NCBI RefSeq assembly: GCF_003688895.1
Contig: NZ_REFV01000004.1
Span: 62,001 to 126,000 of the forward strand
Direction: 5' to 3'
From: Dokdonia sinensis
GTDB taxonomy: Bacteria > Bacteroidota > Bacteroidia > Flavobacteriales > Flavobacteriaceae
Length of the DNA: 64,000 nt
The notes below the pieces were generated by a model. That model was not told where the DNA came from, made no database searches, and worked only from the letters and a program-made list of their open reading frames with translations. A program made the translations under genes and the position numbers. The first letter of the stretch is position 1; every line of letters begins with the position of its first letter. This document shows positions 220 to 63,296 of this stretch, in pieces.

Positions 220-780
220 TTACTTTCCTAGCATCGCCTTTTTAAGATCTTTATCTGCAGGCTCTTTCCCCAACCAGATACCAAAAAGAGCTTTCTTAAA
301 GTCCATACCTTCAATCACTCCAACTTCTTTTCCGTTTTTGTAAACTACAGATCCTTTTCCTTTTATGTAAGCAATGTCAAAAACGTTTCCATTTACAATC
401 TCCTCATTAAAAAATCCTTTAAACTTCTCGATCTTATCTTTAAGTGGCGCAATATTTCCTCTCATAGAAGCATCAAAACCATCATTTACAGCCTCTACCA
501 TTTTTTCTTTAGAAACTAGTCCGGATACGATATGTAGTTTCATAACCATAGTCTCATCTGCATTTATGATAGTGTTTGCGTCTTTGCTTTTTGCTTTAAG
601 ATACAATCCGCCTGCATAAAGATCTATCCAGACTTTCTCTCTCATTCCTGCTCCATTGAGCATTAGGTCAGCTCCCTCGATAGTCATTGTGTTTGGGAGT
701 GTGGCGTCACCTACTTGGGTTTGCGCTTTGGCAAAAGCAAAACTAAAAACAGTAACTAAAGCTAAAAATACATTTTTCAT
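220..780 (-). CDS. Chalcone isomerase-like secreted protein
   Basis: A 186-residue protein with an N-terminal signal peptide ending AFAKA-QTQ, followed by a chalcone-isomerase-like fold domain. Segments that suggest the family are GAGMREKVWIDLYAGGLYL near residue 45 and the C-terminal FKKALFGIWLGKEPADKDLKKAMLG. Bacterial members of this family are periplasmic or secreted proteins of unknown substrate; the plant enzyme's isomerase activity should not be assumed. The signal-peptide cleavage region is encoded by a degenerate copy of the dispersed palindrome (725-738). YihY lies 8 bp upstream on the same strand, so co-transcription with nadC and yihY is likely. Confidence 0.8.
   Translation of the reverse strand: MKNVFLALVTVFSFAFAKAQTQVGDATLPNTMTIEGADLMLNGAGMREKVWIDLYAGGLYLKAKSKDANTIINADETMVMKLHIVSGLVSKEKMVEAVNDGFDASMRGNIAPLKDKIEKFKGFFNEEIVNGNVFDIAYIKGKGSVVYKNGKEVGVIEGMDFKKALFGIWLGKEPADKDLKKAMLGK
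725..738. repeat. Degenerate copy of the dispersed palindrome, in CDS
   Basis: GCTTTGGCAAAAGC differs from the core GCTTTCGCGAAAGC at two central positions. It encodes the Ala-Phe-Ala-Lys-Ala signal peptidase region of the chalcone-isomerase-like protein. Confidence 0.5.
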
Positions 781-787
781 AATTTGT

Positions 788-1729
788 TTATTTATTTAAG
801 GGTTGGTGCGATTTCCGCAATTTTCGTAAAACAGCGTTAAGCTCGAAGCCTAACAATATCAGGTTTGAATTTATCCAAATATATAACAACATTATTAATA
901 GTGCACCTATGGAACCGTACAGCTCATTATAGTTTGAAAAATTATCAATGTAAACACCAAATAAATAGGTAGTTAACATAAATAATAGTGTGGTCATTAG
1001 TGCTCCTGGCGAGAAAAACCTGCTGTGTTTTCCTTCTTTGGTGCCAAAATAATATAACGTCGCTACCGTCACATAGATCATAATCGTAAAGAAAATGTAA
1101 CTCCCTACACTCAATAAAACAATGTCTGTATCGTCACTCATAAAGTCCCTATCTCTTAAAGAATTGAGAACATATTCAAAATAAACCAATACTGTTATCG
1201 TAGTAACCAACAACAATGCCAAAATTATTGAAACACTCAGAGCTATAGCGTATTGCCTGAAAAAACTACGGTTTATATGCACATTAAAAGAGCCTTCAAA
1301 ACCACTAAAAATGGCATTTACGCCATTTGCCATAAGAAATAGTGCAAGTATACCGGCAAATGATAAAAGTCCCGCTCGCTCGTTCTGCGCAATGTCAGAA
1401 ATTATGGGTTGAAAAAAACCTTGCGACTGACTAGGAATAAGTTCATAGATGAATGCCATAAACTTAAGATTAAAGTCATCTATGGGCACATACGGAATCA
1501 AGTTTAACAAAAAAAGTAGCGCAGGAAAAAGCGCCATAAAAAAACTGTATGCGATAGAACTCGCTCTTGAGGACAATGCTCCTTCAAGAATTCCTGTAAA
1601 ATAGGTTTTTGTGAGATCATAAGCCGTCATTCCTTCAAAACCTGGAAGCACGATTTTCTGTAAACCCTCTACTATATAGCAAAAAGGCTTAAATCGCATT
1701 AACTTCTCTTCCAGCGTCTTTTCGGCCAT
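788..1729 (-). CDS. YihY/BrkB-family inner membrane protein
   Basis: A 313-residue polytopic membrane protein of the YihY (formerly ribonuclease BN) family, with about six hydrophobic segments. The diagnostic first block is SRASSIAYSFFMALFPALLF near residues 54-73, and the last block ends in IWINSNLILLGFELNAVLRK near the C-terminus. The molecular function of the family is not settled; it was once misassigned as an RNase. Its start codon overlaps the nadC stop codon by one base, which suggests translational coupling and a nadC-yihY transcript. Confidence 0.92.
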   Translation of the reverse strand: MAEKTLEEKLMRFKPFCYIVEGLQKIVLPGFEGMTAYDLTKTYFTGILEGALSSRASSIAYSFFMALFPALLFLLNLIPYVPIDDFNLKFMAFIYELIPSQSQGFFQPIISDIAQNERAGLLSFAGILALFLMANGVNAIFSGFEGSFNVHINRSFFRQYAIALSVSIILALLLVTTITVLVYFEYVLNSLRDRDFMSDDTDIVLLSVGSYIFFTIMIYVTVATLYYFGTKEGKHSRFFSPGALMTTLLFMLTTYLFGVYIDNFSNYNELYGSIGALLIMLLYIWINSNLILLGFELNAVLRKLRKSHQPLNK

Positions 1730-5451: not shown

Positions 5452-6075
5452 ATGGGTCCTTATACAGGTACAAAAAAGAAAAATAGGTTACAGCTACTAC
5501 ATCAGTACTATCAGTATACTGGGTTTTACACTTTTCTCGCAGATGCGATGAAAAAAGCACTTCCCCCTATTTTACTTGTTGTAGCGGGTATTGCTGCCAT
5601 TCATTTTTTTGTGTATGATATCAACGATGCCCTAGAGTATGTCATAGCTAACTACTCTAATTTTCTTATTCTCACCGTCTTTTTCGTCTCAGAGTCTATA
5701 TTAGGTATTATCCCTCCAGAATTATTTATTGCGTGGAGTGATAAGACGGATGCTCCTATTTTTTATCTCTCTATGATAGCTGTACTTTCCTTTGCAGGTG
5801 GTATTGTTTCATATTTTACAGGGAGAGCAGCACTCAAGATTCCGAGAATATATGAATATCTTGAGGTGAAGATGGCAAAGCATTTAAAAAACGCGCGTAA
5901 ATGGGGAGGCTTCCTAATCCTCGTGGGAGCTCTGCTTCCACTACCCTTTGCTGTTGCTAGTCTGGCTGCTGGTATGATTAGGTTTAATTTTAAATACTAC
6001 CTTCTTTTTGGCTTGGCGCGCTTTGTACGTTTCGCTATTTATGGAGCAGCTATTTTTAGTCTCGTAGAAGGATGA
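5452..6075 (+). CDS. VTT-domain (DedA/SNARE-associated-like) membrane protein
   Basis: A 207-residue membrane protein with about four or five hydrophobic segments. The central FFVSESILGIIPPELFIAWS and the later RKWGGFLILVGALLPLPFAV followed by LAAGMIRFNFKYYLLF are the paired half-helix blocks of the VTT/DedA superfamily, whose members are lipid flippases or ion-coupled transporters. The substrate here is unknown. A -7-like TAATTTTG lies at 5424-5431. Its stop overlaps the start of the next gene by 4 bp (ATGA), so the two are translationally coupled. Confidence 0.75.
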   Translation: MGPYTGTKKKNRLQLLHQYYQYTGFYTFLADAMKKALPPILLVVAGIAAIHFFVYDINDALEYVIANYSNFLILTVFFVSESILGIIPPELFIAWSDKTDAPIFYLSMIAVLSFAGGIVSYFTGRAALKIPRIYEYLEVKMAKHLKNARKWGGFLILVGALLPLPFAVASLAAGMIRFNFKYYLLFGLARFVRFAIYGAAIFSLVEG

Positions 6076-6668
6076 AAATAGTCTTTGCCACACACAATCC
6101 CAATAAACTTAGAGAAATACAGGCATTAGTGCCTTCACATATTACTTTAGTGAGCCTTACTGATATAGGCTGCACAGAAGATATCATCGAAGACGCACCT
6201 ACTATTGAGGGTAATGCGATTCTTAAGGCTAAATATGTAAAGGATAAATACGGTTTTGACTGTTTTGCAGATGATACGGGTCTGGAAGTCAACGCACTTA
6301 ATGGAGCTCCAGGGGTATATTCGGCGCGATACGCAGGTGAACAGAAGAATGCTCTGGATAATATGAATAAGTTACTTATCGAGCTAGCGACTAAGCACGA
6401 TCGAAGTGCGCGGTTTAAAACGGTTATCGCTTTCGCGAAAACTTGTCCCGAACTTGATTCGGGAGCGGACAAAATCCAAACGTTTGAGGGAATATGTAAA
6501 GGTCAGATTACCCGGGAGAAATTGGGAGACGGCGGATTTGGCTATGACCCGATATTCCAACCTGATGGTTTTGATGCCACATTTGCCCAAATGGCAATGC
6601 AATTAAAGGGTAAAATAAGCCATCGCGGTAGGGCTTTTGAGAAGTTTGTTGACTTCTTAGGTCAGTAA
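6072..6668 (+). CDS. rdgB: Non-canonical purine NTP diphosphatase (RdgB/HAM1 family) with an in-frame repeat insertion
   Basis: A 198-residue house-cleaning enzyme that hydrolyses dITP, dXTP and ITP to the monophosphate plus pyrophosphate. Conserved features: the N-terminal FATHNPNKLREIQ, the metal/active-site ADDTGLEVNALNGAPGVYSA, and GFGYDPIFQPDG then SHRGRAF near the end. Between the strand ending in KTVIA and FEGICKGQI the protein carries an extra hydrophilic stretch, AFAKTCPELDSGADK, encoded by a composite palindromic repeat (6428-6467). From memory, relatives have only a short turn here. The reading frame is intact and the catalytic residues are present, so the enzyme is probably active. 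Confidence 0.93.
   Translation: MKIVFATHNPNKLREIQALVPSHITLVSLTDIGCTEDIIEDAPTIEGNAILKAKYVKDKYGFDCFADDTGLEVNALNGAPGVYSARYAGEQKNALDNMNKLLIELATKHDRSARFKTVIAFAKTCPELDSGADKIQTFEGICKGQITREKLGDGGFGYDPIFQPDGFDATFAQMAMQLKGKISHRGRAFEKFVDFLGQ
6428..6467. repeat. Composite palindrome with nested hairpin, in frame inside rdgB
   Basis: The left part CGCTTTCGCGAAA (6428-6440) matches the dispersed palindrome. It is followed by a separate hairpin TCCCGAACTTGATTCGGGA (6446-6464) and a closing GCG. The same architecture is seen at 27364-27403 and 60975-61018. Confidence 0.8.
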
Positions 6669-8937: not shown

Positions 8938-9726
8938 ATGAAAGAAAACCTACTCCTACTTTTCCTTTTTATAGGATTTACAGTGTCTGCACAAGACACC
9001 CCTACTGAGGAAGTCTCCCTCGAATCTGGAATTATTAATGGTACCGTTTTAAGTGCTGCAGATGACCAACCGTTACAAAACGTAAATATTGTTAACCTCA
9101 ATAATGTAAAAGGGGCTATTACAAATCTCGAAGGCTACTTCGAAATCCCTGCTAAGGTCGATGATACACTTTACTTTTCGTATTTAGGGCATAAAAGCCT
9201 TCAAGTACGAGTGAGTGCAGATTGGGTACGTTTTGGTGATGTCAAAATTAAAATGAACGAAATAGGAATTACCCTAGAAGAAATAACAGTGCAAGAAATA
9301 CAGCTCACGGGATATCTAGAAATAGATGCAAAGAAAATTCCTATCTACAACAACTCACGCTATCGCATTGCGGGACTCAACTCTGGTTATGAAGGAGGAA
9401 GTAGTGAACCTGGAGCGATAAGTCGTGCACTTGGGGCTATATTTAATCCTGCAGATTTTCTCTACAATATATTCGGCAAGAAACCTAAGGAAATGAGGAA
9501 GTTACGTAAGATGAAAGAAGACGATAAAGTACGTAACCTTCTAGAAAAAAAATATGACCGTGAGACGCTCGTTGCTCTGTTGCAAATAGATCGCAACGAT
9601 ATTGATGCCATTTTATTAAACTGTAATTATTCTGATAACTTTATAGTGACCGCAAATGATCTTCAGATTTTAGATGCTATGTCAGAATGTTATGAGGAAT
9701 ACCAAGTGTTACAACAGAGAGATTAA
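8938..9726 (+). CDS. Secreted protein with carboxypeptidase regulatory-like beta-sandwich domain
   Basis: A 262-residue protein with a signal peptide (MKENLLLLFLFIGFTVSAQ), then a CarboxypepD_reg-like domain at about residues 30-105. The pattern INGTVLSAADDQPLQNVNIVN ... GAITNLEGYFEI ... LYFSYLGHKSL is the one found at the N-terminus of SusC/TonB-dependent receptors. No TonB barrel follows; the remaining 150 residues are mostly charged and helical. Such stand-alone proteins are common in flavobacteria and of unknown function. It stands alone between the helicase terminator and the convergent trmH gene. Confidence 0.8.
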   Translation: MKENLLLLFLFIGFTVSAQDTPTEEVSLESGIINGTVLSAADDQPLQNVNIVNLNNVKGAITNLEGYFEIPAKVDDTLYFSYLGHKSLQVRVSADWVRFGDVKIKMNEIGITLEEITVQEIQLTGYLEIDAKKIPIYNNSRYRIAGLNSGYEGGSSEPGAISRALGAIFNPADFLYNIFGKKPKEMRKLRKMKEDDKVRNLLEKKYDRETLVALLQIDRNDIDAILLNCNYSDNFIVTANDLQILDAMSECYEEYQVLQQRD

Positions 9727-9736
9727 TTCTGAAGAA

Positions 9737-9756
9737 TACGCTTTCGCGAAAGCGTA
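9737..9756. repeat. Full-length dispersed palindrome, intergenic
   Basis: Perfect 20-bp palindrome TACGCTTTCGCGAAAGCGTA between two convergent genes. It is followed by an A run and lies 6 bases from the trmH stop codon. Confidence 0.92.
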
Positions 9757-9762
9757 AAAAAC

Positions 9763-10419
9763 CTATTTTCCCTCCTGATTGTAACGCTCCATCACACCAT
9801 CTATATCCTTGATCATCTTTTTGGTCCAAGTTAATTTTTTGTCAAAAAGCTCTTGCTCCGAAAATTTCCAATCTATTGCTGAAGTTTTAAGCTTATTTGT
9901 AATATGCTGCAAGGTAATGGCCGCAGAAACAGAAATATTAAGGCTTTCTGTAAACCCTACTGTAGGAATATAGATGTAGTCATCTGCCTCATCAAGAACT
10001 AAGTCGCTAAGCCCTTCTGTCTCTCTCCCAAAGAAAATGGCGGCTCTCTGTGTGATGTCAAAATCTTCTAATCTATGTGCGCCCTTATGTGGAGAAGTTG
10101 CTACAATACGATATCCTGCCTTCTTAAGTTGTTTTATGCAATCTGAAGCACTTAAGTGTCGCTTAACATCTACCCATTTCTGAGCGCCCATTGCAATTTC
10201 CCTATCGATACGTTTTGCATTAACCTCCTCAATAACGTGCAACTCTTGGATACCAAATGACTCACAGCTTCGTATCACCGCGCTTGTGTTATGAAGTTGA
10301 TACACATCCTCTACCGCAACCGTAAAATGCTGTGTGCGCTCTTTTAGAACTTTGTCAAAAAGTGCTACACGTCTTTCAGTTAAAAATGATTCTAGGTATT
10401 CGAGTAATTTATGATCCAT
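9763..10419 (-). CDS. trmH: TrmH/SpoU-family RNA 2'-O-methyltransferase, probably tRNA Gm18
   Basis: A 218-residue SpoU enzyme. The three SPOUT motifs are visible: NTSAVIRSCESFG (motif 1, about residue 43), FFGRETEGLSD (motif 2) and IPTVGFTESLNISVSAAI (motif 3, forming the SAM-binding knot). The absence of the N-terminal L30e-like domain of RlmB and the length fit TrmH, which methylates the ribose of G18 in the tRNA D-loop. The C-terminal basic helix region (LTWTKKMIKDID) is also TrmH-like. Target assignment is by family resemblance. Confidence 0.88.
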   Translation of the reverse strand: MDHKLLEYLESFLTERRVALFDKVLKERTQHFTVAVEDVYQLHNTSAVIRSCESFGIQELHVIEEVNAKRIDREIAMGAQKWVDVKRHLSASDCIKQLKKAGYRIVATSPHKGAHRLEDFDITQRAAIFFGRETEGLSDLVLDEADDYIYIPTVGFTESLNISVSAAITLQHITNKLKTSAIDWKFSEQELFDKKLTWTKKMIKDIDGVMERYNQEGK

Positions 10420-12512: not shown

Positions 12513-12584
12513 TATAAATTCAATGTTTATTTATCTGAAGATACTAATAATTTGACTTTATCGTAATTAAAGTAAGGTTAATAT

Positions 12585-12596
12585 TTTCGCGAAAGC
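12585..12596. repeat. Partial dispersed palindrome between kinase and regulator
   Basis: TTTCGCGAAAGC core with one decayed flank, located in the 96-bp gap between the two-component genes. Confidence 0.7.
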
Positions 12597-12608
12597 ATAA
12601 CTAAAATA

Positions 12609-15600
12609 TTAATTTAGGGGTAACTTTAATATGACCCTCGTTCCTATCGATATATCCCCTTCATACAAGTCTATGATTTGAAGATTAACGTTTTTATTAG
12701 TGTATCGGTTTATGATTTCTATACGCTCTTTTAGAATTTTTGTAGCCCACGATTTGTGGGTCTTTCTATTTTTTGCTTTAAGCGCTATCGCAGCCTTTCT
12801 ACCGATTCCATTATCTGTAATGGATCCAATAAGATGTCCATTTTCCTCCTTGAATTTTATTTCAATTTTTGCCTCGCCATCTCTTTTGGGAGCCAGACCG
12901 TGGATTATAGCATTCTCGACAATAGGCTGAAATAACATGCAGGGAATTTGTATACTCGCGATGTCGAGGTCTTCTGGATCAATCGTGATTACAGTTTCTA
13001 AGGATCGTGCCTGACGTATCTTTTCTAAACTTAAATATGCTTCTAGATACTCTATCTCCTCGCTTAGACTTATAGTGTCTGTACGGCTCATATCGAGTGA
13101 TGAGCGTAGCAACTTAGAGAAAGAACCTAAATATTTATTTGCTTCCTTTTCTCCTTTAAGAATCATTGTACTCTGCAGTCCATTAAGTGCATTAAACATA
13201 AAATGCGGATTCATCTGAGCTCTAAGAGCCTTTGCTTCCAACTGGTCTACCTGACGTTGCTGTCTATATTTCTCTTTCCAACGATATTTTCTGAACTCGT
13301 AAAAACCGATAAGCATAAGCGCTATTCCAGCGATATTAAGCAAGAGGAACCACGTGGTTTTATAGAAGACCTGCTCAACCTTTATGGGAATGGTTATTTC
13401 ATTTACCGTAGGGCTCCCTGAAGAATCGTCCCCGCGCAGGCGTAAGATATACTCCCCTGGCGAAAGCGCATTCAACTGTAAAGAATTAGACGCTCCCAAA
13501 TCTATCCAATTAGGATTAAGTCCCTCTAGTTTATATTCATAAGTTGCTTCTTCTGCGTTAAAGAGATCCGTAATGGCAAAACTTATATTGAGAAAAGTTT
13601 TGGAATAAGGAAGAACTAAATTATCTAAGCGTCTTTTAACATTATAGGTTTCCGTAACTACTTCTTCTTTCTCATCATCATAAAACTGAGCACTTACGAT
13701 CTTAATCTGTGCATCAGATTTCTTAAAAGTTAAGTCGGCAGAGGTAAAATAGGCTACACCATTAAGTCCTCCGAAAAATAGCGCATCAGATTTACTTTTG
13801 AAGTATGAGGTTTGATTAAATTCATTTTCTGGTAGTCCGTCTTTTTCATAAAAATTATAAAACCAATCATCTATCTTATGATAACAAGTCAGGCCTCCAA
13901 AAGTGCTAAGCCAGACACCTATGTCATCTTCTAATATTCCGACTACTGTATTATTTGCTATTCCATCTGCTTTATCGTAATGCTCCCAAGAAGTTAGGTC
14001 ACTATTTAAGATTACCAGCCCAGCATCGGTACCTAGATAATATGACCCATCGTGCCCCTTATGAATAACATATATGGTACGTGCAGGAAATGGCTTTATC
14101 TTATCATCAGGTGAAAAATGAACTACCAGACCACTCTCAAGGTTCTTATAAAGTAGTCCATCGCTAGATGTGGCCAGTAATAAATATCGATTCTTCTCAT
14201 CTAAGTAAATGTCCTTAATAGTATATGCTGCAAGATCAAATCCTGGCAGGATATCATTCATTTCCTTAACTTCTTTACTAATCCTATCAAAAACGAAGAG
14301 TCCTTTGTTAGTTCCTATAAAAAATTGGTCCGAACCTGTTGCTACGAGTTTTTGTGAGGTAAGTAACCGACCCTCATTTTCTCCTTCTAAAATGTAGGGA
14401 GTAGAGACTCTCGTGTTCAAATTTATACGCAACAGCCGCCTTGTTTCACCTAAGTTCCAAAGAATACTATCGTTCTCAACGTATAAACTCCGATTGAGAT
14501 TAAGTAACTTATTGGATTGATCCCTTAACGGCAGATCGACCATAGAAACTTGCTCATTACTATCCATCTCATACAATCCTCCATAAGTTGCAAATAAAAT
14601 ATTTCCATTTTCCTTTTGTGCCATTCCTCTAACACTAACTCGGGAAGCTTGTATCGGTAATTGATCGCTTGTTAATAACGTTTTAAAGGGGAGCTGCTTA
14701 TATTTTAATTTAAAGGCTCCTCCTAGTGTCGATATATAAATGGGAGCATCACTAGTAGAAAAAATACGCTGTACAGACCTTTGAAAAGTTACTGGTTTAA
14801 GGATTGAATTCAATTTCTTTTTTTCCCTGTCGAGTACGTAAAAATTTACTTTAGCACTATTGCTAGCATCAATTTCAGAAACTACGACTCCTTGTTGCAT
14901 ATCTGGCAACCCTGATTCTGTTAAGACCTGAAAACGTTGTGACGGTAAGACTAATACTTGACTCTCAATGCTAGATAAAACGTCAAAGGGGTATTTTTTA
15001 TCATTATGACTATAAAAACCTGAAGTTCTAAGAGGCATTACAGCACCATCAGGAATAACTTTTAAATATGCCCCATCTGCTAATTGATCCCTAAGAGATT
15101 CATACGATTTTATAAATGTTATTGCATCATTCTCAAACTTTAAAACTTTATCAAATTGAGTAAGAATTACTCCATTTAATCCAACTCTGTTTTGAAATTT
15201 AATGCGATAACTATCAAAATCATCTGTTGAGACTGGAGTTACATATAGGTCGTCATCTAGTTTAATAGGAAGTAAACTATCAGATTTAGAGTTATAGCGC
15301 ACCACATACTGACTGTTTGTAGTAAACAGCATCGTACCGTCACTAGTTTCATAAATACTGGTAAACCCTAAAGCCTCTTTTGTATTCGGATTAGATAATT
15401 GCAACCACCTCCCACTTAATGTTTCTTCTGAAAACTGATAAAGCCCAAGGCTTGTAGCAACCCAAACTGACCCGTCACGAGACTGATAAATATCCCTAGA
15501 AGGATTGGGACCCAACTCTTCTGGAGGAGGAGAAAATGAATGCGTCATCTCCTCTACACCGTAATACTTTACGATACCATTTGCTGTAGTATACCAAGGA

Positions 15601-15782: not shown

Positions 15783-15823
15783 AGATGTTTTAAATATAAG
15801 ATTTTGTGGGGTTTATTTTTATT

Positions 15824-15839
15824 CTTTCGCGAAAGCGTA
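15824..15839. repeat. Dispersed palindrome, intergenic
   Basis: CTTTCGCGAAAGCGTA with the left flank decayed, between the divergent kinase gene and a small membrane protein gene. Confidence 0.8.
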
Positions 15840-15900
15840 CACCGCTCAAACCTCAATTGGAATATTATTGTCGTAGCTTTCCCATAAATTCCAGATTATT

Positions 15901-16832: not shown

Positions 16833-16977
16833 AAAGTTAGTTTTAATGATTAGTTTATTTCTCTCTTACTATTTGCTTAAAGATACCTTATGAGAGCTCC
16901 GAAACCATTTAAACTTGCATAAGAATAGGTTAAATGTTGTAAAACAGCGCTTAATTAAAAGCTTTGGGGAGAAGTTT

Positions 16978-16994
16978 GCTTTCGCGAAAGCGTA
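16978..16994. repeat. Dispersed palindrome in the 3' region of the SH3 gene
   Basis: GCTTTCGCGAAAGCGTA followed by an A run; it ends 9 bases from the stop codon of the minus-strand gene at 17004. Confidence 0.88.
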
Positions 16995-17003
16995 AAAAAA
17001 ATG

Positions 17004-17833: not shown

Positions 17834-17975
17834 AAGGAGGTACGTATGAATAAGGAATAACCGAAAGAAGTCATTGCACAAAACATGTAATGCAAATTAA
17901 TGATTTAATTATTCACTAATAATTGAATTAGCCAAAACAAAAGTGCTGGGAATCGTTCTCGGCGCTTTTTGTTTT
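17834..17975 (+). promoter_or_regulatory. Candidate leader or small RNA with terminator-like hairpin
   Basis: The 366-bp gap before the next start holds an unusually strong ribosome-binding sequence AAGGAGG (17834-17840), a four-codon frame (ATG 17846 to TAA 17860), and a hairpin (17943-17952 with 17956-17965, 3-base loop) flanked by A-rich and T-rich arms. All ten stem pairs form only in the plus-strand RNA because three are G-U pairs. It could be an attenuator for the gene at 18030 or the terminator of a small RNA. Confidence 0.4.
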
Positions 17976-18029
17976 GTAACAATTTATCATTTAAACCTAC
18001 TTATAAGTATCAATCAAACTTTAAGAAAA

Positions 18030-40153: not shown

Positions 40154-42161
<2,008 letters not shown>

Positions 42162-42357: not shown

Positions 42358-42412
42358 GACAATGCTACCTTTAGAAAAAGCTTATGCCGTCACCCACATT
42401 TTCGCCGAAAGG

Positions 42413-50001: not shown

Positions 50002-50108
50002 TTTGAAGGTTTTAAATTGTTGAACAAAACAAAGATAAAATAAAACATTAACACAATTGGACGGGATTCAATCTCAGTGAACACTATTGAAAGAATTTAT
50101 ATCCTAAT

Positions 50109-50128
50109 TACGCTTTCGCGAAAGCGTA
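50109..50128. repeat. Full-length dispersed palindrome, intergenic
   Basis: Perfect TACGCTTTCGCGAAAGCGTA between the divergent kinase and marR genes. Confidence 0.92.
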
Positions 50129-50182
50129 TAAATCATAAATGGAACTACAAATCCAATTAATTGATCAAATTATTTTTTAAAT

Positions 50183-53597: not shown

Positions 53598-54788
53598 ATG
53601 AAAACAGCATACATAGTAAAAGCCTACCGTACCGCAGTAGGTAAAGCCCCAAAAGGAGTTTTTCGCTTTAAGAGAGCAGACGAACTCGCAGCAGAAACCA
53701 TTCAATATATGATGGATGAGCTGCCTAATTTTGATAAAAAGCGTATAGACGATGTCATCGTGGGTAACGCTATGCCAGAAGGATCTCAGGGTCTTAATAT
53801 GGCACGTTTAATCTCTCTTATGGGATTAGACATTATTGATGTACCTGGAGTAACGGTAAACCGTTTTTGCTCCTCAGGTATTGAGACCATCGGGATGGCA
53901 GTAGCAAAGATTCAAGCCGGAATGGGCGATTGTATAATCGCTGGTGGTGCAGAATCTATGAGCTCTGTGCCTATGACAGGTTTTAAACCAGAACTAAACT
54001 ACGACATCGTAAAATCGGGTCACGAAGATTATTACTGGGGAATGGGAAATACGGCCGAGGCAGTAGCTAACGAATACAAAGTATCTCGAGAAGATCAAGA
54101 TGAGTTTGCCTACAACTCTCATATGAAAGCCTTAAAAGCACAGGCTGAAGATCGTTTTAAAGACCAAATCGTACCTATAGAGGTCGAGCAAACCTTTGTA
54201 AACGCAAACGGGAAAAAAGAGTCTAAAAAATATACGGTAACTAAAGATGAAGGCCCACGTGCTGGAACGAGTAAAGAAGTACTCGGCAAGCTACGACCTG
54301 TTTTTGCAGCAAACGGCAGTGTTACCGCGGGTAACTCTTCACAAATGAGTGATGGTGCCGCTTTTGTACTCGTTATGAGTGAGGAGATGGTAAAAGAATT
54401 AAATCTTGAGCCTATAGCACGTATGGTCAACTATGCAGCAGCAGGTGTACCTCCTCGCGTGATGGGAATAGGACCAGTCGCTGCGGTGCCAAAAGCACTT
54501 AAACAAGCAGGATTAAAACAAAGCGATATAGAACTTATAGAATTAAACGAAGCTTTTGCGTCACAATCTCTAGCTGTTATTCGTGAGTTGGACTTAAATC
54601 CAGATATCATAAATGTTAATGGTGGTGCTATTGCTTTAGGTCACCCGCTAGGATGTACAGGTGGTAAACTTTCTGTACAATTATTTGACGAGATGCGTAA
54701 GAGAGATATGGCTGGCAAATATGGTATGGTGACTATGTGTGTTGGTACTGGACAAGGAGCAGCTGGGATTTACGAGTTTTTGAAGTAA
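53598..54788 (+). CDS. fadA: Acetyl-CoA C-acyltransferase (thiolase)
   Basis: A 396-residue thiolase, catalysing 3-ketoacyl-CoA plus CoA to acyl-CoA plus acetyl-CoA. Nucleophilic Cys91 lies in VNRFCSSGIETI. Further motifs are ELNEAFASQSLAVIRE, GGAIALGHPLGCTGGKL and the second Cys in MVTMCVGTGQGAAGIYEF. Full length. It belongs functionally to the operon before and after it. Confidence 0.96.
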   Translation: MKTAYIVKAYRTAVGKAPKGVFRFKRADELAAETIQYMMDELPNFDKKRIDDVIVGNAMPEGSQGLNMARLISLMGLDIIDVPGVTVNRFCSSGIETIGMAVAKIQAGMGDCIIAGGAESMSSVPMTGFKPELNYDIVKSGHEDYYWGMGNTAEAVANEYKVSREDQDEFAYNSHMKALKAQAEDRFKDQIVPIEVEQTFVNANGKKESKKYTVTKDEGPRAGTSKEVLGKLRPVFAANGSVTAGNSSQMSDGAAFVLVMSEEMVKELNLEPIARMVNYAAAGVPPRVMGIGPVAAVPKALKQAGLKQSDIELIELNEAFASQSLAVIRELDLNPDIINVNGGAIALGHPLGCTGGKLSVQLFDEMRKRDMAGKYGMVTMCVGTGQGAAGIYEFLK

Positions 54789-54793
54789 GGGAA

Positions 54794-54819
54794 TGATTTC
54801 GCTTTCGCGAAATGATGTA
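54794..54819. repeat. Hairpin repeat A, carries a palindrome core
   Basis: TGATTTCGCTTTCGCGAAAT followed by GATGTA. The core CGCTTTCGCGAAA (54800-54812) belongs to the dispersed palindrome family. The sequence recurs in part at 54877-54901. Confidence 0.7.
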
Positions 54820-54837
54820 TGACTTAGCCTTCGGCTT

Positions 54838-54937: not shown

Positions 54938-55297
54938 ATGAATAGTAGACATAATTTTAGAAAACTAGGGATTTGGAAAGAAGGTATTGAGGTTGCTAAG
55001 GAGACTTATGCAACTACTAAGATATTTCCTAAGTCTGAAATGTATGGGTTGAGTAGTCAAATGCAACGATGTGCTGTATCTATTCCTTCAAATATTGCCG
55101 AAGGAACAGCAAAGAGTAGTAATAAACATTTTAATCAATATTTAGAAACTGCGCTTGGATCTGCATTTGAATGGGAAACACAGTTGATTATTGCTTATGA
55201 AATAGAATATATTTCAGAGGAAACTTTTAGTCACCTTGAGAATAAAATTCAACGAATACAGAATATGATTTCTAATTTTATGAAAACAATCGTTTAA
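54938..55297 (+). CDS. Four-helix-bundle (S23) protein, second copy
   Basis: A 119-residue S23 paralogue: FRKLGIWKEGIEVAKETYAT, YGLSSQMQRCAVSIPSNIAE, GTAKSSNKHFNQYLETALGS. It shares the YGLxSQxxRCAVSxPSNIAEG core with the copy at 53204 but differs widely elsewhere, so it is not a recent duplication. It lies between thiolase and acyl-CoA dehydrogenase genes and is flanked by a different inverted repeat whose right arm begins at the stop codon. Confidence 0.9.
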   Translation: MNSRHNFRKLGIWKEGIEVAKETYATTKIFPKSEMYGLSSQMQRCAVSIPSNIAEGTAKSSNKHFNQYLETALGSAFEWETQLIIAYEIEYISEETFSHLENKIQRIQNMISNFMKTIV

Positions 55298-55314: not shown

Positions 55315-55403
55315 AGCAAAGCGCAGCGAGCAAGTCTTACATCGCGAAGCGTAGCGGAGCAAGAATAGAGTAGATTATAGAAGATTAAATACAACAGAGA
55401 ATA

Positions 55404-55418
55404 TTTTCGCGAAAGCGT
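55404..55418. repeat. Dispersed palindrome, intergenic
   Basis: TTTCGCGAAAGCGTA followed by an A run. Confidence 0.85.
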
Positions 55419-55492
55419 AAAAAAATAATTAATAAAGAATAACACAAAATAAACATAGAGAACAGATTTTAGAAGGACGATACAACACTCCT

Positions 55493-55527: not shown

Positions 55528-55528
55528 T

Positions 55529-57343
55529 ATGGCAACAGAAACAACAGAAAAAGAAATCCTACGCGGTGGTCAGTTCCTCGTTAAGGAAACAGCATGTGAA
55601 GACGTGTTTACGATGGAAGACTTAAATGAAGAGCAACGTATGATGCGTGACTCGACCAAAGAGTTTGTAGATCGTGAGTTATGGGCACACTGGGAGCGTT
55701 TTGAGAAAAAAGACTACGCTTATACTGAAGAAACGATGCGTAAAGCTGGTGAACTCGGACTTTTAGGCGTTGCTGTACCAGAAAAATATGACGGTCTAGG
55801 AATGGGCTTTGTCTCTACAATGCTCGTTTGTGATTACATTTCTGGAGCTACAGGATCATTTAGTACGGCATTTGGAGCGCATACGGGAATTGGTACCATG
55901 CCTATCACGCTTTATGGAAACGAAGAGCAAAAGATGAAGTACGTACCAAAACTTGCTACTGGTGAGTGGTTTGGTGCATACTGTCTTACAGAGCCAGGTG
56001 CTGGTTCTGACGCAAATTCTGGAAAAACAAAAGCAGTTCTTTCTGATGACGGAAAAACATACAAAATTTCTGGCCAGAAAATGTGGATCTCAAATGCTGG
56101 ATTCTGTAACCTATTTATCGTTTTTGCTAGAATAGAAGATGATAAGAATATCACAGGGTTTATCGTAGAAAATGATCCTTCTAACGGCATCACATTAGGT
56201 GACGAAGAAAAGAAGTTAGGTATTCACTCTTCATCTACGCGTCAGGTATTCTTTAATGATACTGTGGTTCCTGTAGAAAATATGCTTTCTGAGCGTGGTA
56301 ACGGTTTTAAAATTGCTATGAACGCCCTTAACGTAGGTCGTATTAAACTAGCTGCGGCTTGTCTAGATGCGCAGCGTCGTGTGATTAATGAAGCAACTAC
56401 CTATGCTAAGGAACGTGTACAGTTTAAAACACCTATCATCAACTTTGGAGCGATTAAGAGTAAGCTCGCTATTATGGCGACAAATGCTTATGCAGATGAG
56501 AGTGCTTGTTACCGTGCTGCAAAAAATATAGAAGACCGTATCGCAATGCGTGAGGCGGCTGGAAACACCCACCAAGAAGCAGAGCTTAAAGGTGTAGAAG
56601 AATATGCTATAGAGTGTTCTATCTTAAAAGTTGCCGTTTCTGAGCACGTACAAGCGTGTAGTGATGAAGGTATCCAGATTTTTGGAGGAATGGGCTTTAG
56701 TGCAGACACCCCAATGGAATCTGCCTGGAGAGATGCACGTATTGCTCGCATTTATGAAGGTACAAATGAGATAAACCGTATGCTTGCGGTAGGAATGCTT
56801 GTAAAGAAAGCGATGAAAGGTCACGTAGACCTTTTAGGTCCTGCAACAGCGGTAGGTGAAGAACTTATGGGAATCCCAAGTTTTGACACTCCAGATTATA
56901 GCGAACTCTTTGCCGAAGAGAAAGAAATTATCAAGAAGCTTAAGAAAGTATTTTTAATGGTAGCAGGAAGTGCGGTACAGAAATTTGGCCCACAATTAGA
57001 AGAGCACCAGCAATTATTACTTGCTGCTTCAGATATCTTGATCCAAGTATATATGGCAGAAAGTGCGTTACTACGTACCGAAAAGAATGCTAAGAAAAAA
57101 GGTGAAGATTCGCAGAAAACAGAAATTGCAATGACGCAATTGTATCTGTACAATGCAGTAGACATCGTAGCCACAAAAGCTAAGGAGTCTATTATCTCTT
57201 TCGCCGAAGGTGATGAGCAACGCGTAATGCTTATGGGACTTAAACGTTTTACAAAGTATACCAATATGCCTAACATCGTTGCCCTTAGAAAGCAAATTTC
57301 TAGCGATCTTGAAGAGAACGGAAAATATCGTTTTGATGGGTAG
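55529..57343 (+). CDS. Acyl-CoA dehydrogenase, long form
   Basis: A 604-residue flavoenzyme introducing the first double bond in beta-oxidation. The N-terminal helical domain is about 40-150, then CLTEPGAGSDANSGKTKAVL and ISGQKMWISNAGFCNLFIVF (FAD/substrate region), QIFGGMGFSADTPMESAWRD, and the catalytic Glu in RIYEGTNEINRMLAV. The extra C-terminal 150 residues, mostly helical, are as in very-long-chain enzymes. Last gene of the operon and followed by a terminator. Confidence 0.95.
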   Translation: MATETTEKEILRGGQFLVKETACEDVFTMEDLNEEQRMMRDSTKEFVDRELWAHWERFEKKDYAYTEETMRKAGELGLLGVAVPEKYDGLGMGFVSTMLVCDYISGATGSFSTAFGAHTGIGTMPITLYGNEEQKMKYVPKLATGEWFGAYCLTEPGAGSDANSGKTKAVLSDDGKTYKISGQKMWISNAGFCNLFIVFARIEDDKNITGFIVENDPSNGITLGDEEKKLGIHSSSTRQVFFNDTVVPVENMLSERGNGFKIAMNALNVGRIKLAAACLDAQRRVINEATTYAKERVQFKTPIINFGAIKSKLAIMATNAYADESACYRAAKNIEDRIAMREAAGNTHQEAELKGVEEYAIECSILKVAVSEHVQACSDEGIQIFGGMGFSADTPMESAWRDARIARIYEGTNEINRMLAVGMLVKKAMKGHVDLLGPATAVGEELMGIPSFDTPDYSELFAEEKEIIKKLKKVFLMVAGSAVQKFGPQLEEHQQLLLAASDILIQVYMAESALLRTEKNAKKKGEDSQKTEIAMTQLYLYNAVDIVATKAKESIISFAEGDEQRVMLMGLKRFTKYTNMPNIVALRKQISSDLEENGKYRFDG

Positions 57344-57685: not shown

Positions 57686-58450
57686 ATGGCTAATAAATAT
57701 CTGAATTTTATAACCGATGAACATCTCTTAAATTGTATTGAAAACCTTCACAAATCATATTTGAAGGCTAAAGCAAATGTGAGTAAAAAGAAATTTTACA
57801 AAAATAAAATAGATACAATTAAATTAACTTTTGATAGTAAATTCAATGATTTAGATGAAGAGACACTCATAAAAACAGAAATAAATCGTCAGATAGATAA
57901 ATCTATAAATAACTCCATTGGTACATTTCACGAACAAATTTTAGGAGGCATTTCTGGTTACGAAATAGGAAATTTAAGTGGTTTTGATATTAAAGCAAGT
58001 AATGACACTCTATTTGCTGATATTAAAAACAAGCATAATACTATGAATAGTAGTTCGGCTGAAAGCTTATTTCAGAAATTAGCCAAATATGCAGATACCT
58101 ATAAGCAAGCTAATTGTTATTTGGTTCAGATTCTTGCAAAAAATAGCTTTAATGAAAAATGGTTTGGAGAAATAAATGGTAAAGAATACAGTCACAGTAG
58201 AGTGTACAAAATATCAGGTGATCAATTTTACAAATTACTATCTGGCCAAGAAGACGCTCTCTTTCAATTATACAGTGTTTTACCTAAGGCTATTACTGAT
58301 TATTTGAAAAAGCAACAAAATGAGAAATCACATACTAATTCGGCTCTTGAAGAAATTTCAACTAGTTCAAGTCAAACTAAAAGAACTATTTTAAACGAAA
58401 TTACTTTTGAAAATTTTAGCTACTACTTAGGTTTTGACAAACTTAAATAA
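57686..58450 (+). CDS. Eco47II-family type II restriction endonuclease
   Basis: A 254-residue nuclease. The central region TFHEQILGGISGYEIGNLSG (about 80-99), FDIKASNDTLFADIKNKHNT (100-119) and AESLFQKLAKYADTYKQANC resembles the Eco47II family, whose members cut GGNCC or related sites. A PD-(D/E)XK centre can be read as Asp101 and Asp112-Ile-Lys114. The specificity is inferred only. It converges on the methylase gene with a 28-bp overlap. The DNA is AT-rich relative to flanks, and the pair is probably acquired. Confidence 0.85.
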   Translation: MANKYLNFITDEHLLNCIENLHKSYLKAKANVSKKKFYKNKIDTIKLTFDSKFNDLDEETLIKTEINRQIDKSINNSIGTFHEQILGGISGYEIGNLSGFDIKASNDTLFADIKNKHNTMNSSSAESLFQKLAKYADTYKQANCYLVQILAKNSFNEKWFGEINGKEYSHSRVYKISGDQFYKLLSGQEDALFQLYSVLPKAITDYLKKQQNEKSHTNSALEEISTSSSQTKRTILNEITFENFSYYLGFDKLK

Positions 58451-59682
58451 TAAGAGTTCAGGAACTTTATAACAGAATACCCAACTTCCTGCCCCAAATT
58501 ACAAGGCACTGCATTACCTATTTGTTTATACTGTTGTGAAGTAGAACCTGCAAACTCCCACTCATCAGGGAACGTTTGAATTCTAGCATACTCTCGAACT
58601 GTGAACGGTCTTGTTTCATCAGGATGGCAACGTTCTGTTTGTTTCTGAGCAGGACTACACGTTAAAGTTAAGCTTGGTTCGTCCCAACCAATACGCCTTG
58701 CCATACCTGTTTTTCCGCCTCCTAAGTAGAAACTACCTCCCATATATTCCTTTTGCAAATCAAGTGGAAGGTCTCTCCAATATCCTTTAGGTGGTATCAA
58801 ATCCAAAATTTGCTTCTTATATTCCGGATATTTTGCTCCTTCCGATTTTGGAACTTTCTTATTGTATAGTTCTCCTTTCTTAAGAGCATCTTTAAGATTA
58901 TAAACCTTTTTATGTGGAGTAGGATATTGATAATCTATATTAATATCTTTTCTTATGCCCACTAAGAACAGACGTTCGCGCTTTTGCGGAACACGATAAT
59001 GAATTGCTTTAAGAACTTCTACAGGAACTACTTTATATCCAATTTCGTCAAGAATTGATTTCATTCCTTCGAGAGTTTGTCCTTTTTCGTGACTTAAAAG
59101 TCCTCTCACATTTTCACCAATACAAATAAGTGGTTGCACCTCTTGAACTACTCTCGCAAATTCATAAAATAATGTTCCTCTCGCATCATTTAAACCTAAT
59201 TTTTTTCCTGCATAACTAAATGCTTGACAAGGAAATCCTCCAGTAACTACATCTACGGAATTCCTATAATCTTTAAAATCAAAATTTTTGATATCTCCTT
59301 CTAATACATTCCAATTTGGTCTGTTATTTCTAAGGGTTTGACAAGCCCATTTATCTATTTCATTTAGTGCAACACATTTAAGTCCTGCTTTTTCCATTCC
59401 GACCGCTAAACCACCAGCCCCAGCGAATAATTCAAGTACAGAATATTCCTTTTTAGGTTCAACTACATTAGAAACTGGAGTTTGAAAATTTTCATCGAGT
59501 AATTCACCCATAAATAGTTGGATATCCGTTTTTCTATAAACACGATAGTTCGATCCAGGTTCTCTTACAGCGTTTAATACTCCATCATTATCCCATCTTC
59601 TTAATGTTTCTTTACTCTTCCCAACTATCTCTGCAGTCTCAGATAATGACAAATATTCTTTCATAACCAACTTATTAAACAT
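58423..59682 (-). CDS. DNA (cytosine-5) methyltransferase with N-terminal MerR/excisionase-like HTH
   Basis: A 419-residue modification enzyme. Residues 8-58 are a MerR-type helix-turn-helix (SLSETAEIVGKSKETLRRWD, then EPGSNYRVYRKTDIQLFM). The C5 methylase core follows: motif I LFAGAGG (85-91), catalytic Pro151-Cys152 in GGFPCQAFS, motif VI ENVRGL, motif VIII VPQKRERLFLVG and motif X QYKQIGNAVP. The target-recognition part includes YMGGSFYLGGGKTGMARRIG and LTCSPAQKQTERCHP, like Sau96I/Eco47II-type (GGNCC) enzymes. The HTH may repress its own gene or that of the nuclease. An internal start at 59664 (MKEYLSL) is also possible. Confidence 0.92.
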   Translation of the reverse strand: MFNKLVMKEYLSLSETAEIVGKSKETLRRWDNDGVLNAVREPGSNYRVYRKTDIQLFMGELLDENFQTPVSNVVEPKKEYSVLELFAGAGGLAVGMEKAGLKCVALNEIDKWACQTLRNNRPNWNVLEGDIKNFDFKDYRNSVDVVTGGFPCQAFSYAGKKLGLNDARGTLFYEFARVVQEVQPLICIGENVRGLLSHEKGQTLEGMKSILDEIGYKVVPVEVLKAIHYRVPQKRERLFLVGIRKDINIDYQYPTPHKKVYNLKDALKKGELYNKKVPKSEGAKYPEYKKQILDLIPPKGYWRDLPLDLQKEYMGGSFYLGGGKTGMARRIGWDEPSLTLTCSPAQKQTERCHPDETRPFTVREYARIQTFPDEWEFAGSTSQQYKQIGNAVPCNLGQEVGYSVIKFLNSYYLSLSKPK

Positions 59683-61086: not shown

Positions 61087-62040
61087 ATGTCCTATACCCT
61101 TTTATCGTCGCCGCTGCAAGGTTTTACAGATTTCCGCTTTAGGAATGCGCAGCAAAAGTTTTTTGGAGGGATAGACACCTATTATGCGCCGTACATTAAA
61201 ATGGGTAAGAAGCAGATCATTAAAGGCTCTTACCAGCGTGACCTCAATCCTGAGGTGAACACGACATTAGAAGTCATCCCGCAAGTAATGACCGCAAATG
61301 CCGATGATTTTATATTTGTCATCAAGTATATACAATCGCTAGGCTACAAAGAACTAAACTGGAATCTAGGCTGCCCCTACCCGATGGTGACTAAAAGTGG
61401 GATGGGCTCCGGCCTGATTTGCAATACTGAAAAAATAGACCATATTCTAGACCGTGCCCACAGCGAGACCGATTGTACCATCTCTATGAAAATGCGTTTA
61501 GGGTACGACAGTCCTAATGAGATTTTAGAATCTTTTAAAGTGCTGGACAAATACCCACTTAAAAATGTAGCCATACACGCGCGTCTGGGCAAACAGTTAT
61601 ACAAAGGCGGTACTGATTTAGAAGCTTTTCAGCGTTGTGTAGATGTGGCTAAACATACCTTGTACTACAATGGTGACATCACCTCAGTAGCGAGTTTTAA
61701 AAAACTACGGGAGCGTTTCCCAAGTATTCAGCATTTTATGATGGGCAGAGGTCTCATCGCAGATCCATTCTTACCGAGTATGATAAAAGCAGATACGACG
61801 GAGTATCCTGCAAATAGGTGGGATATTTTTCGCGAATTTCACGATACGATTTATCACCAGTATGATGCCGCGCTCTCTGGCCCTACGCCTATCAAGATGA
61901 AAATGTTAGGCTTCTGGGAGTTTTTCTCTCAATCTACCCACAATCCTCAAAAGGTATACAAAGCAATTAAGAAAGCTGGCAACCCTTTTAAATACCAGCA
62001 GGCGGTTAGCGAGATTATTGCACAGCAAAAACGTTTGTAA
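61087..62040 (+). CDS. tRNA-dihydrouridine synthase
   Basis: I start it at the ATG at 61087 (317 residues, MSYTLLSSPLQGFTDFRFRN), because the upstream frame runs through the composite repeat. It is an FMN-dependent Dus enzyme with SPLQGFTDFRFR, the catalytic Cys in NLGCPYPMVTKSGMGSGL (about 95-112), MKMRLGY, HARLGKQLY, and FMMGRGLIADPF binding flavin phosphate. Family subgroup (DusA/B/C) is not certain; it is closest to DusC-like proteins of Bacteroidota. Reduces uridines in the tRNA D-loop. Confidence 0.9.
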   Translation: MSYTLLSSPLQGFTDFRFRNAQQKFFGGIDTYYAPYIKMGKKQIIKGSYQRDLNPEVNTTLEVIPQVMTANADDFIFVIKYIQSLGYKELNWNLGCPYPMVTKSGMGSGLICNTEKIDHILDRAHSETDCTISMKMRLGYDSPNEILESFKVLDKYPLKNVAIHARLGKQLYKGGTDLEAFQRCVDVAKHTLYYNGDITSVASFKKLRERFPSIQHFMMGRGLIADPFLPSMIKADTTEYPANRWDIFREFHDTIYHQYDAALSGPTPIKMKMLGFWEFFSQSTHNPQKVYKAIKKAGNPFKYQQAVSEIIAQQKRL

Positions 62041-62156
62041 CGTTAAAATAAAATAAGTAAACTGCAACCATACACGATACATACCTTGTACACTGAGCGT
62101 GCGTACTTCTGTATATAATGCTATTTTTATAGTATCTAGTTCTTAGCATTTATTTT

Positions 62157-63296
62157 ATGAAACACCTACTCACGTTACTATGTGTACTGCTCTTGATTTC
62201 TTGCGATACTGGTCCCACATTTTCTTGGAATCCTGAAATCGAAGAAACGGTTAGTGGTGATCTCACCGCTTGGCTTAAAAGCGCACCCTTTGACGGGCTC
62301 TGGGATCCTAATGATAATGACCGTGGTGACGTTTACATTACCAACGCACGAGAGGTATTTCCTTTTATAGGTGAGCTTATTAATGAGGATAATAATTTAG
62401 TCCTGATTAGCGAAAAAAACAGACCGTTTTACAAGGAGCAGCTTGTTGTTTTTAAAGACCCTACTTGGGGCGAAAGCGTGGTTTATGGAAGTTTACTTTA
62501 CGATAGCCAAGAACTGTTTATGCGTAAGTCTTATTCAAAATCGGCAAATATTATTACAGATGGTCTGGCAAATATGAACAACCGTAATTACGCCAGCCTT
62601 GGGGCGACTGAACTGATTGCTACTACAGCAGACCATAAAACAGCTGCCTATTGGGTCCAGGCAAACAATACGACCTACTTAATGGGGTTTTATCAGAAAG
62701 ACCAGCTTGCCTTTCAAGTCGCTTTTCCCTGCCCGATGACTAAAAAAGAAAAAGGACTGGCACAACTTAAAAAAGTAGCAGCAACCTTACAGTTAGACAT
62801 CCCAGCCTGGAAAAATGCTGCCGCTGACGACTTAGCGAGAGCAGACCGTACAGATGCTTTCTGGCAAGATCCGTACATTCCGCTGTTTTACTCTCGAGGG
62901 TTAATGCCTATTATAAACATAAAACTCAAAGGCACCCTTTTTGAAAAGGAGACATTTAATAGACAGTCGCGCTCTTCAAACAAGGCAAGCATAAGCCACG
63001 TAGCTGGTGACAAAACCTACACACTGACCATAAGCAAAGAAGACACGGAGTTAAGTGCACTCGCTTTTCGCGAAAGCGAAACCAGCAAACCACTACCAGG
63101 TGCCGTAGATAAGGACCGAGAGTACATACTTGAAACTACCGAAAGTGGCGCAATGACCCAAATAAAAGCCACCACCTATTACAAAGACCATCAAGTATTT
63201 GTATTTACCTACACCTACCCCACTGCTCAAACTGATCAAGCCGCAGTACTTAACACCGTATTGCAAACCATAAAAATAAGTCGTTACACCATTTAA
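62157..63296 (+). CDS. Lipoprotein of unknown function (379 residues)
   Basis: A lipoprotein with lipobox LLISC, mature Cys at about 16. The rest has no family I recognise: a mixed alpha/beta N-terminal half and a beta-rich C-terminal half with LKGTLFEKETFNRQSRSSNK and a late TYTYPTAQTDQ. It is followed by the 107-residue gene after 10 bp and by another lipoprotein gene, so the three may form an operon. An off-frame palindrome copy (63061-63077) is present. Confidence 0.75.
   Translation: MKHLLTLLCVLLLISCDTGPTFSWNPEIEETVSGDLTAWLKSAPFDGLWDPNDNDRGDVYITNAREVFPFIGELINEDNNLVLISEKNRPFYKEQLVVFKDPTWGESVVYGSLLYDSQELFMRKSYSKSANIITDGLANMNNRNYASLGATELIATTADHKTAAYWVQANNTTYLMGFYQKDQLAFQVAFPCPMTKKEKGLAQLKKVAATLQLDIPAWKNAAADDLARADRTDAFWQDPYIPLFYSRGLMPIINIKLKGTLFEKETFNRQSRSSNKASISHVAGDKTYTLTISKEDTELSALAFRESETSKPLPGAVDKDREYILETTESGAMTQIKATTYYKDHQVFVFTYTYPTAQTDQAAVLNTVLQTIKISRYTI
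63061..63077. repeat. Palindrome with one extra base in the lipoprotein gene
   Basis: CGCTTTTCGCGAAAGCG, 17 bases, read Ala-Phe-Arg-Glu-Ser because the added T shifts the frame choice. Confidence 0.7.

Follow-up and report, generated by a model that had tools for sequence, protein, structure and literature searches.

A dyad-symmetric element of about 52 bp repeated roughly a thousand times in Dokdonia genomes, and what may read it

A stretch of 64,000 nucleotides from Dokdonia sinensis (Flavobacteriaceae; NCBI RefSeq assembly GCF_003688895.1, contig NZ_REFV01000004.1, positions 62,001 to 126,000 of the forward strand; hereafter the window) raises the question of why a single palindromic 10-mer, TTTCGCGAAA, recurs along it. 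This core occurs 20 times exactly, whereas 100 dinucleotide shuffles predict 0.10 copies and never yield as many; Markov models of orders 1 to 4 predict 0.12, 0.12, 0.10, and 0.32. A first-pass annotation made from the letters of the window had reported at least 20 exact cores where well under one was expected, and a 20-bp perfect palindrome at 9737 and 50109; the count holds, and both coordinates are correct (9737–9756 and 50109–50128). Five altered forms had also been listed. Six copies with one mismatch are present (26 matches including the exact ones; 3.69 expected), a number little above chance within the window, and near 725, where the range had been made to begin, there is just a two-mismatch form. 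The gaps between window cores measure 602 to 7661 bp. The pattern extends beyond the window to the rest of the genome and to other species. The whole genome (3.65 Mb, 43 contigs) carries 1107 cores and 15 copies of a control made of the reversed letters, the Markov models having been applied to the window alone. In 464 kb of this genome—the window and 20 further stretches, with genes called by a custom gene caller—there are 157 cores, and the next palindromic 10-mer reaches only 9 copies.

The palindrome is the center of a larger unit. The element is a dyad of two half-sites of approximately 26 bp, each consisting of five core bases, then GC(G)TA, and then an arm of approximately 16 bases. On each strand, a stretch of approximately 16 bases on the 5′ side of the palindrome contains very little C, favors G and T, and has a 3-base rhythm; hence, the GC skew flips at the center. 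The skew of the 5′ flank is +0.61 at 5–10 nt, +0.51 at 10–20 nt, +0.25 at 20–30 nt, and about 0.1 at 30–60 nt, and is near zero by 160 nt; the depletion of C stops at about −21. Seven control palindromes in the same DNA show a skew of −0.04 to +0.12 at 5–20 nt (one of them, with only 12 sites, reaches 0.19 farther out). The 3-base phase of base use in 264 strictly noncoding half-sites has a p value of 2e-13—overstated because the rows come from partly related genomes—and that of the far-flank control is 0.34. The flank skew in the genome G016 and in Nonlabens (32 sites) agrees with that of D. sinensis, and the pattern recurs in named genomes, with a skew of 0.48 in Dokdonia (106 half-sites) and of 0.59 in Nonlabens (78 half-sites). 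The same 14-mer in other taxa is without arms (44 half-sites at 22 loci, skew 0.05), as it is in viral contigs (170 half-sites, 0.02, among the 80 loci listed from 120 stretches); five loci of uncertain standing, set apart, give 0.36 near and 0.25 far (12 half-sites). In two plasmid stretches from cyanobacteria, the flanks of the highly iterated palindrome HIP1 (26 and 32 sites) have a skew of −0.01 and 0.04 at 6–21 nt, with 0.11 and 0.33 at 1–5 nt, and the 5′ flank of Chi in 200 kb of Escherichia coli (56 sites) has 0.08 near and 0.03 far. Since the arms are bounded around the core and are missing at the same 14-mer elsewhere, at HIP1, and at Chi, the element is taken to be approximately 52 bp long. 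The 20-bp unit described previously is, hence, a real palindrome inside a longer dyad whose one-sided flanks had been missed.

The two halves do not behave as the stem of a hairpin. In 280 sites, and conditional on an exact core, left–right identity from −1 to −40 is never more than 1.6 sd above expectation; it strays farthest at −7 and −10, where it is lower than expected (z −2.3 and −2.5), and shifts by one to four bases change little. On this lack of covariation, a hairpin or mini-hairpin is rejected as the unit. The 8-mer GCGAAAGC, which we take to be a very stable DNA mini-hairpin, has no clear excess outside the palindrome: 267 of its 299 copies are inside, and the remaining 32 are to be set against the 4–32 copies of five control 8-mers (CGAAAGCG, a sixth one, owes its 253 copies to an overlap with the element). 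A transcription terminator is rejected as well, given that the T-rich stretch precedes the palindrome on each strand instead of following it and that many sites are in genes. The RNA-end element that had been among the earlier candidates is unlikely because the halves do not covary and 67 of the 157 cores are coding.

The sites keep their distance from one another. In D. sinensis, only 6 of 153 gaps are shorter than 1 kb, compared with 49.9 in simulations that keep the rates seen in coding and intergenic DNA (35 in the lowest of 1000 runs), and in G016 7 of 99 are, with 25.5 expected. Pooled pairs of both genomes number 10 at less than 1 kb versus 76 expected and 23 at 1–1.5 kb versus 38; beyond this, the ratios run from 0.75 to 1.12. 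An exclusion zone of about 1 kb, thus measured, lies between sites. Along the G016 chromosome, 20 stretches hold 3–8 cores per 20 kb with no clear trend or strong gradient.

The cores are also kept in place. Among cores inside alignments, to which the retention counts refer, 12 of 12 are retained between G016 and G008 and 12 of 13 between G016 and G006, at 76% identity, when 10.5 and 10.8% of all 10-mers are. Closer pairs retain 59/63, 60/64, 58/62, and 17/17 (controls 0.56, 0.38, 0.36, and 0.60), and a pooled test arranged by flank identity gives 8/11, 19/27, 17/22, and 27/28 (controls 2.0, 3.8, 7.2, and 13.8%). If joined 200-kb stretches are taken with their unaligned parts, a partner is found for 49 of 55–58 cores between G006 and G009 and for 48/58 and 48/64 between G006 and G008. 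In pairs with G004, 19 of 29 placements of a partnerless core have another unmatched one no farther than 700 bp away, compared with about 5 expected, at about four separate places; in the other, closer pairs, such local re-siting is seen in 2 of 36 placements versus about 2.9 expected. Within genes, core differences are mostly ungapped multi-base changes that alter amino acids: these gains are substitutions. In the arms, C/T differences per T are 0.030, compared with 0.067 in the farther flanks, those per C are about unchanged (0.147 and 0.128), and A/G differences per A are raised (0.124 versus 0.086); these rates are arithmetic on unpolarized counts with stationarity assumed. Because the C/T rate is halved per T and about unchanged per C, the avoidance of C is attributed to selection; that the skew results from single-strand deamination is rejected, the rate per C not being clearly raised.

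Relative to genes, the placement is uneven. Of the 157 cores in 464 kb, 67 are coding and 90 intergenic, i.e., 0.175 versus 1.109 per kb, the intergenic share being an upper estimate because the gene caller misses some genes. The element is denser outside genes; in the window, 10 of 20 cores fall within listed open reading frames (ORFs) and 10 between genes. Copies had been described as lying on both sides of gene ends and inside genes, which is accurate as to both locations; the indifference to genes this implied is contradicted by the densities. In the 464 kb, 27 cores sit 7–32 nt beyond a stop codon. Translated in frame, 42 of the 67 coding cores give FAK, 36 of those AFAKA, and some are in signal-peptide-like gene starts. 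The copies in the window are the following (element, core, and location; the element has no strand, and signs give the strand of ORFs):

2392–2443, core 2413–2422: within the QRPTase ORF 1729–2589 (−)
6410–6461, core 6431–6440: within the Ham1-family ORF 6072–6668 (+); right flank resembles a REP-like repeat
9721–9772, core 9742–9751: 20-bp palindrome 9737–9756, between convergent gene ends 9726 and 9763
12564–12615, core 12585–12594: 14 nt beyond the stop of ORF 12609–15782 (−)
15804–15855, core 15825–15834: between divergent starts 15782 and 15901
16959–17010, core 16980–16989: 14 nt beyond the stop of ORF 17004–17663 (−)
18406–18457, core 18427–18436: within the AIM24-family ORF 17943–18833 (+); one or two core bases differ in the aligned G016, G008, G006, G009, G003, and G004
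20661–20712, core 20682–20691: in the N-terminal, signal-peptide-like part of ORF 19239–20735 (−), read as AFAKA
24163–24214, core 24184–24193: within ORF 22255–25620 (−)
26021–26072, core 26042–26051: within the hydrolase ORF 25646–26452 (−)
30773–30824, core 30794–30803: 11 nt beyond the stop of ORF 30815–33556 (−)
35304–35355, core 35325–35334: within the NusB-family ORF 34554–35501 (−)
38233–38284, core 38254–38263: within the ABC transporter ORF 36902–38656 (+)
40106–40157, core 40127–40136: 17 nt beyond the stop of ORF 40154–41155 (−)
42324–42375, core 42345–42354: between ORFs 41175–42161 (−) and 42413–46876 (−)
46037–46088, core 46058–46067: within the TamB ORF 42413–46876 (−)
50093–50144, core 50114–50123: 20-bp palindrome 50109–50128, between divergent starts 50001 and 50240
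54782–54833, core 54803–54812: 14 nt beyond the stop at 54788
55384–55435, core 55405–55414: between ORFs 54938–55297 (+) and 55529–57343 (+)
63045–63096, core 63066–63075: within ORF 62157–63296 (+)
33644–33663, degenerate copy: mismatched at 2 of 20 positions, perhaps a site in decay

The element has a narrow taxonomic range. Seventeen other Dokdonia genomes carry 481–1195 copies each, and 21 other relatives in the same search 0–8. Of 397 genomes sampled from the family, only six exceed 34 copies: two Dokdonia, three Nonlabens (g26; 595, 648, and 700 copies), and one of the genus g206 (G222; 559 copies). In a phylum sample of 395 genomes, the top count among the 394 others is 29, with 41 for the control, and no further rich genome appears. 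A scan of named genomes places 28 of the 80 loci listed, out of 108, in Dokdonia, 25 in Nonlabens, and 27 in scattered taxa; four of the 25 are from strain BBFL7, presumably a Nonlabens. The rich genera are, in the samples searched, confined to Dokdonia, Nonlabens, and one third genus. A tree of 30 genomes based on one gene joins the three as one clade in 0 of 200 bootstrap trees and is poorly resolved; its well-supported branches do not rule out a single origin. Separate origins are disfavored because G222 and Dokdonia share sites in place: both cores covered by aligned stretches are common to the two. In the NusB-family gene, compared in the window and in 18 of the 29 other genomes that have the gene, the 14-mer is identical in 9/9 Dokdonia and in G222; other letters occupy its position in 3/3 Nonlabens and 6/6 site-poor genomes. 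Nonlabens cores aligned to Dokdonia are shared in 0 of 2 cases. When 20 kb from each of 20 other genera, and stretches of another three, were screened for comparable palindromes, none showed an excess like that of Dokdonia (7 versus 0.25) or Nonlabens (5 versus 0.15). The screen is weak, since the motif escaped it in 20 kb of the rich G222; the strongest other palindromes in it were AAGATCTT (6 versus 0.85) and TACCGGTA (4 versus 0.32). The first-pass annotation knew of no description for this group, and none was found in the open literature, by letters or by topic, most subscription papers being outside the search; the papers found to contain TTTCGCGAAA concern other matters, as judged by title.

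What, then, maintains the element? Very probably, it is a duplex site that a protein reads and that selection or drive maintains; this protein, its binding as a dimer, and the process are what we infer. For the process, a self-DNA mark spread through biased DNA uptake is the preferred candidate, at somewhat less than an even chance. A sequence-specific protein would bind each dyad as a dimer; fragments with one site would be preferentially taken up and recombined, so that molecular drive would spread and restore the sites, which would settle where they are least harmful. A second site on the same fragment would add nothing; therefore, distances under about 1 kb would be emptied. Such uptake would explain the copy number, the core with its arms, the even spacing, the avoidance of genes, and the confinement to few genera. 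The uptake signal sequence (USS) of Haemophilus is described as having a core and AT-tracts, occurring about 1000 bp apart, and spreading by molecular drive (PMC7811141); uptake sequences are described as evenly spaced (PMC1939737); and Riemerella columbina, a member of the Flavobacteriaceae, preferentially takes up its own DNA (PMC7965970). With the USS of Pasteurellaceae and the DNA uptake sequence (DUS) of Neisseriaceae, the element has in common about a thousand copies, a short exact core flanked by degenerate sequence, even spacing, higher density outside genes, and restriction to few genera. It differs in being palindromic, in its two-sided arms that switch polarity, and in occurring in a family for which an established uptake sequence was not found; uptake is here a proposal. 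Because it is a perfect palindrome with symmetric arms, the element is not filed with USS and DUS and may only work like them.

Several points weigh against an uptake mark read as a dyad. Known uptake sequences are not palindromes (PMC1939737), and in the study of Riemerella Flavobacterium johnsoniae was not competent and no established uptake sequence was named (PMC7965970); the accessible literature on Dokdonia gave no report of competence, with no search for competence genes made. The spacing in G016 is less even than in D. sinensis (coefficient of variation 0.83 versus 0.59), the arms of G222 are shorter and weaker (21 sites), and the arms at −6 to −21 are no better conserved in sequence than the farther flanks. 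Between the two half scores of a site, there is a weak positive correlation (Pearson 0.15, Spearman 0.24; 420 sites, partly orthologous), so that the halves are not fully independent; the inner part and the arm of one half correlate at 0.33 in the same sites, and the scores suggest that some sites have one degenerate half. Finally, three of the four gaps wider than 6.5 kb in the 464 kb hold ordinary-looking chromosomal genes, as judged by eye from translated starts. Site-poor DNA is therefore not simply foreign, and a foreign-DNA reading of all wide gaps is rejected. The widest gap of the window holds restriction–modification genes. On the side of uptake, two phages of a Nonlabens-group host have no sites.

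The main rival to an uptake mark is a chromosome-organizing site. A dimeric nucleoid protein on about a thousand dyads, one site per 1–3 kb, would structure the chromosome locally, perhaps nucleating a nucleoprotein filament along the arms; it would explain the same spacing and conservation, and we regard it as unlikely, though a real contender. The local exclusion zone, the conserved orthologous places, the dyad symmetry with arms, and the lack of a strong gradient along the G016 chromosome are all in keeping with it, as is the local re-siting of lost sites in a distant pair, in every case with G004; in closer pairs, however, re-siting is at chance. The search for proteins, which covered 24 genomes—13 rich (nine Dokdonia, three Nonlabens, and G222) and 11 poor—gave no candidate among ParB_N proteins: the domain is encoded in all genomes, by one gene in 12 of the 13 rich ones, two in G011, and one to three in the poor ones. 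The parS and Noc sites of ParB-family proteins are TTTC...GAAA dyads and resemble the element. Their center, however, is two bases shorter, the element has about a thousand copies, and an extra ParB or Noc is rejected on the single gene in those 12 genomes.

A proposal that embraces both self-marking and chromosome organization would be that a dimeric protein reads dyads of about 52 bp whose arms reverse strand asymmetry at the center and are read in 3-base steps, at about a thousand sites with regulated distances (mostly over 1 kb) along the whole chromosome; the sites would mark the entire genome as self or serve as a ruler of the chromosome, in a way that we know from no other bacterium; in this full form, it is tentative and has a less than even prospect of holding. 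If the element is an uptake mark, it would be the first in Bacteroidota and the first palindromic one known to us; if structural, it would represent a new chromosome-organizing system. Short sequences with a thousand copies—HIP1, USS, DUS, and Chi—tell how cells mark, take up, repair, and fold their own DNA. For HIP1, reported in 1995, we know of no agreed function. The bounded extended motif, the measurable exclusion distance, the strong in-place conservation, and the rich and poor genera in one family are features not seen at HIP1, and together with cultured marine members they make protein and process findable.

Improbable is a two-way signal of the Chi kind, where a helicase–nuclease would stop at the palindrome from either side and RecA would load on the G/T-rich, 3′-ended strand just 5′ of it. 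RecA prefers G/T and binds in triplets. As a RecA nucleation stretch, the arms would on this account have a 3-base step, and they do lie on the RecA-loading side with a 3-base rhythm. The D. sinensis genome encodes a 903-aa PD-(D/E)XK protein (PF12705), putatively AddB in our reading of its sequence. To our knowledge, Chi does not depend on an exclusion zone, and none of its known sites is palindromic. Chi of RecBCD or AddAB is alike in the G/T-rich strand on the RecA-loading side and in copy number (1008 in E. coli; PMC1939737). It is unlike in being asymmetric and one-directional, as opposed to a palindrome with an exclusion zone, and the E. coli sites are without such a 5′ flank. RecC was found in 0 of 28 genomes, by which RecBCD is rejected.

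As improbable is an origin of the HIP1 type, in which an orphan methyltransferase and methyl-directed mismatch repair would generate the sequence, as Elhai proposes for cyanobacteria. A GC-rich palindrome in great excess fits this, and the model of Elhai (2015) saturates at a set spacing. In the genomes tested, a C5 methyltransferase is encoded in 6/13 rich (4/9 Dokdonia, 2/3 Nonlabens, 0/1 G222) and 3/11 poor ones, an N6/N4 methyltransferase over the cut-off in 2/13 rich (0/9 Dokdonia, 1/3 Nonlabens, 1/1 G222) and 2/11 poor ones. An origin by methylation is weakened because five of nine Dokdonia have neither of the two families over the cut-off (the D12, HsdM, and Eco57I-type families being outside the test), and the cyanobacterial stretches lack the skew at 6–21 nt. 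HIP1 (GCGATCGC) is alike as a highly iterated GC-rich palindrome within and between genes; unlike it, the element has the core TTTCGCGAAA, arms of about 16 C-poor bases, a strong intergenic preference, and no consistent methyltransferase of the two families.

That the palindrome is mobile, like a repetitive extragenic palindromic (REP) sequence or a miniature inverted-repeat transposable element (MITE), is scarcely credible and largely refuted. In its favor are the dispersed copies, denser between genes, and the Y1_Tnp genes of 3/3 Nonlabens. Against it, these genes occur in only 1/9 Dokdonia (27 bits, cut-off 23) and 0/1 G222, thus in 4/13 rich genomes, and in 5/11 poor ones, so that they do not track the sites; in-gene differences are mostly ungapped substitutions, cores keep their places, and halves do not covary. 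REP sequences and their REP-associated tyrosine transposases (RAYTs) share with the element short dispersed palindromes near gene ends, and differ in that here neither pairing covariation nor an insertion history is seen, 8/9 Dokdonia have no Y1_Tnp, and many copies are in genes. RAYT, extra ParB, RecC, and the two methyltransferase families do not track the sites. The copies are genome-wide, within as well as between genes, and the earlier judgment is upheld that the element differs from an ordinary REP and is broadly akin to HIP1 or to uptake sequences.

Other repeats touch the element at individual places. A second, REP-like repeat (approximately CTTGTTCCGAATTTATTTCGGGAGC, in variant forms) adjoins one side of the core, directly or at a short distance, at L124 13621, L126 13439, L133 11027, L136 13450, and window 6431, as if it used the edge of the core as its target. 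In G014 (L192), the counterpart of the palindrome at L190 12776 (G011) is broken by an insert of approximately 45 bp resembling another short repeat. The nonpalindromic CTTCGGAA is overrepresented in three other genera (20-kb stretches L364, L370, and L172: 15, 10, and 8 copies versus 1.7, 1.5, and 0.1 expected). In L163 of G222, AACGGTCT and overlapping 8-mers, likewise nonpalindromic, are in excess (10 versus 0.6 expected), as a local repeat or a second motif.

Two sets of genes in the window stand near conspicuous distances. The closest pair of cores, at 54803 and 55405, encloses the gene of a 23S rRNA intervening-sequence protein (PF05635; 54938–55297). The widest site-free gap, from 55.4 to 63.07 kb, contains at 57686–59682 the gene of an Eco47II-type restriction endonuclease (PF09553), convergent with a C5 methyltransferase gene that bears an N-terminal MerR-like domain.

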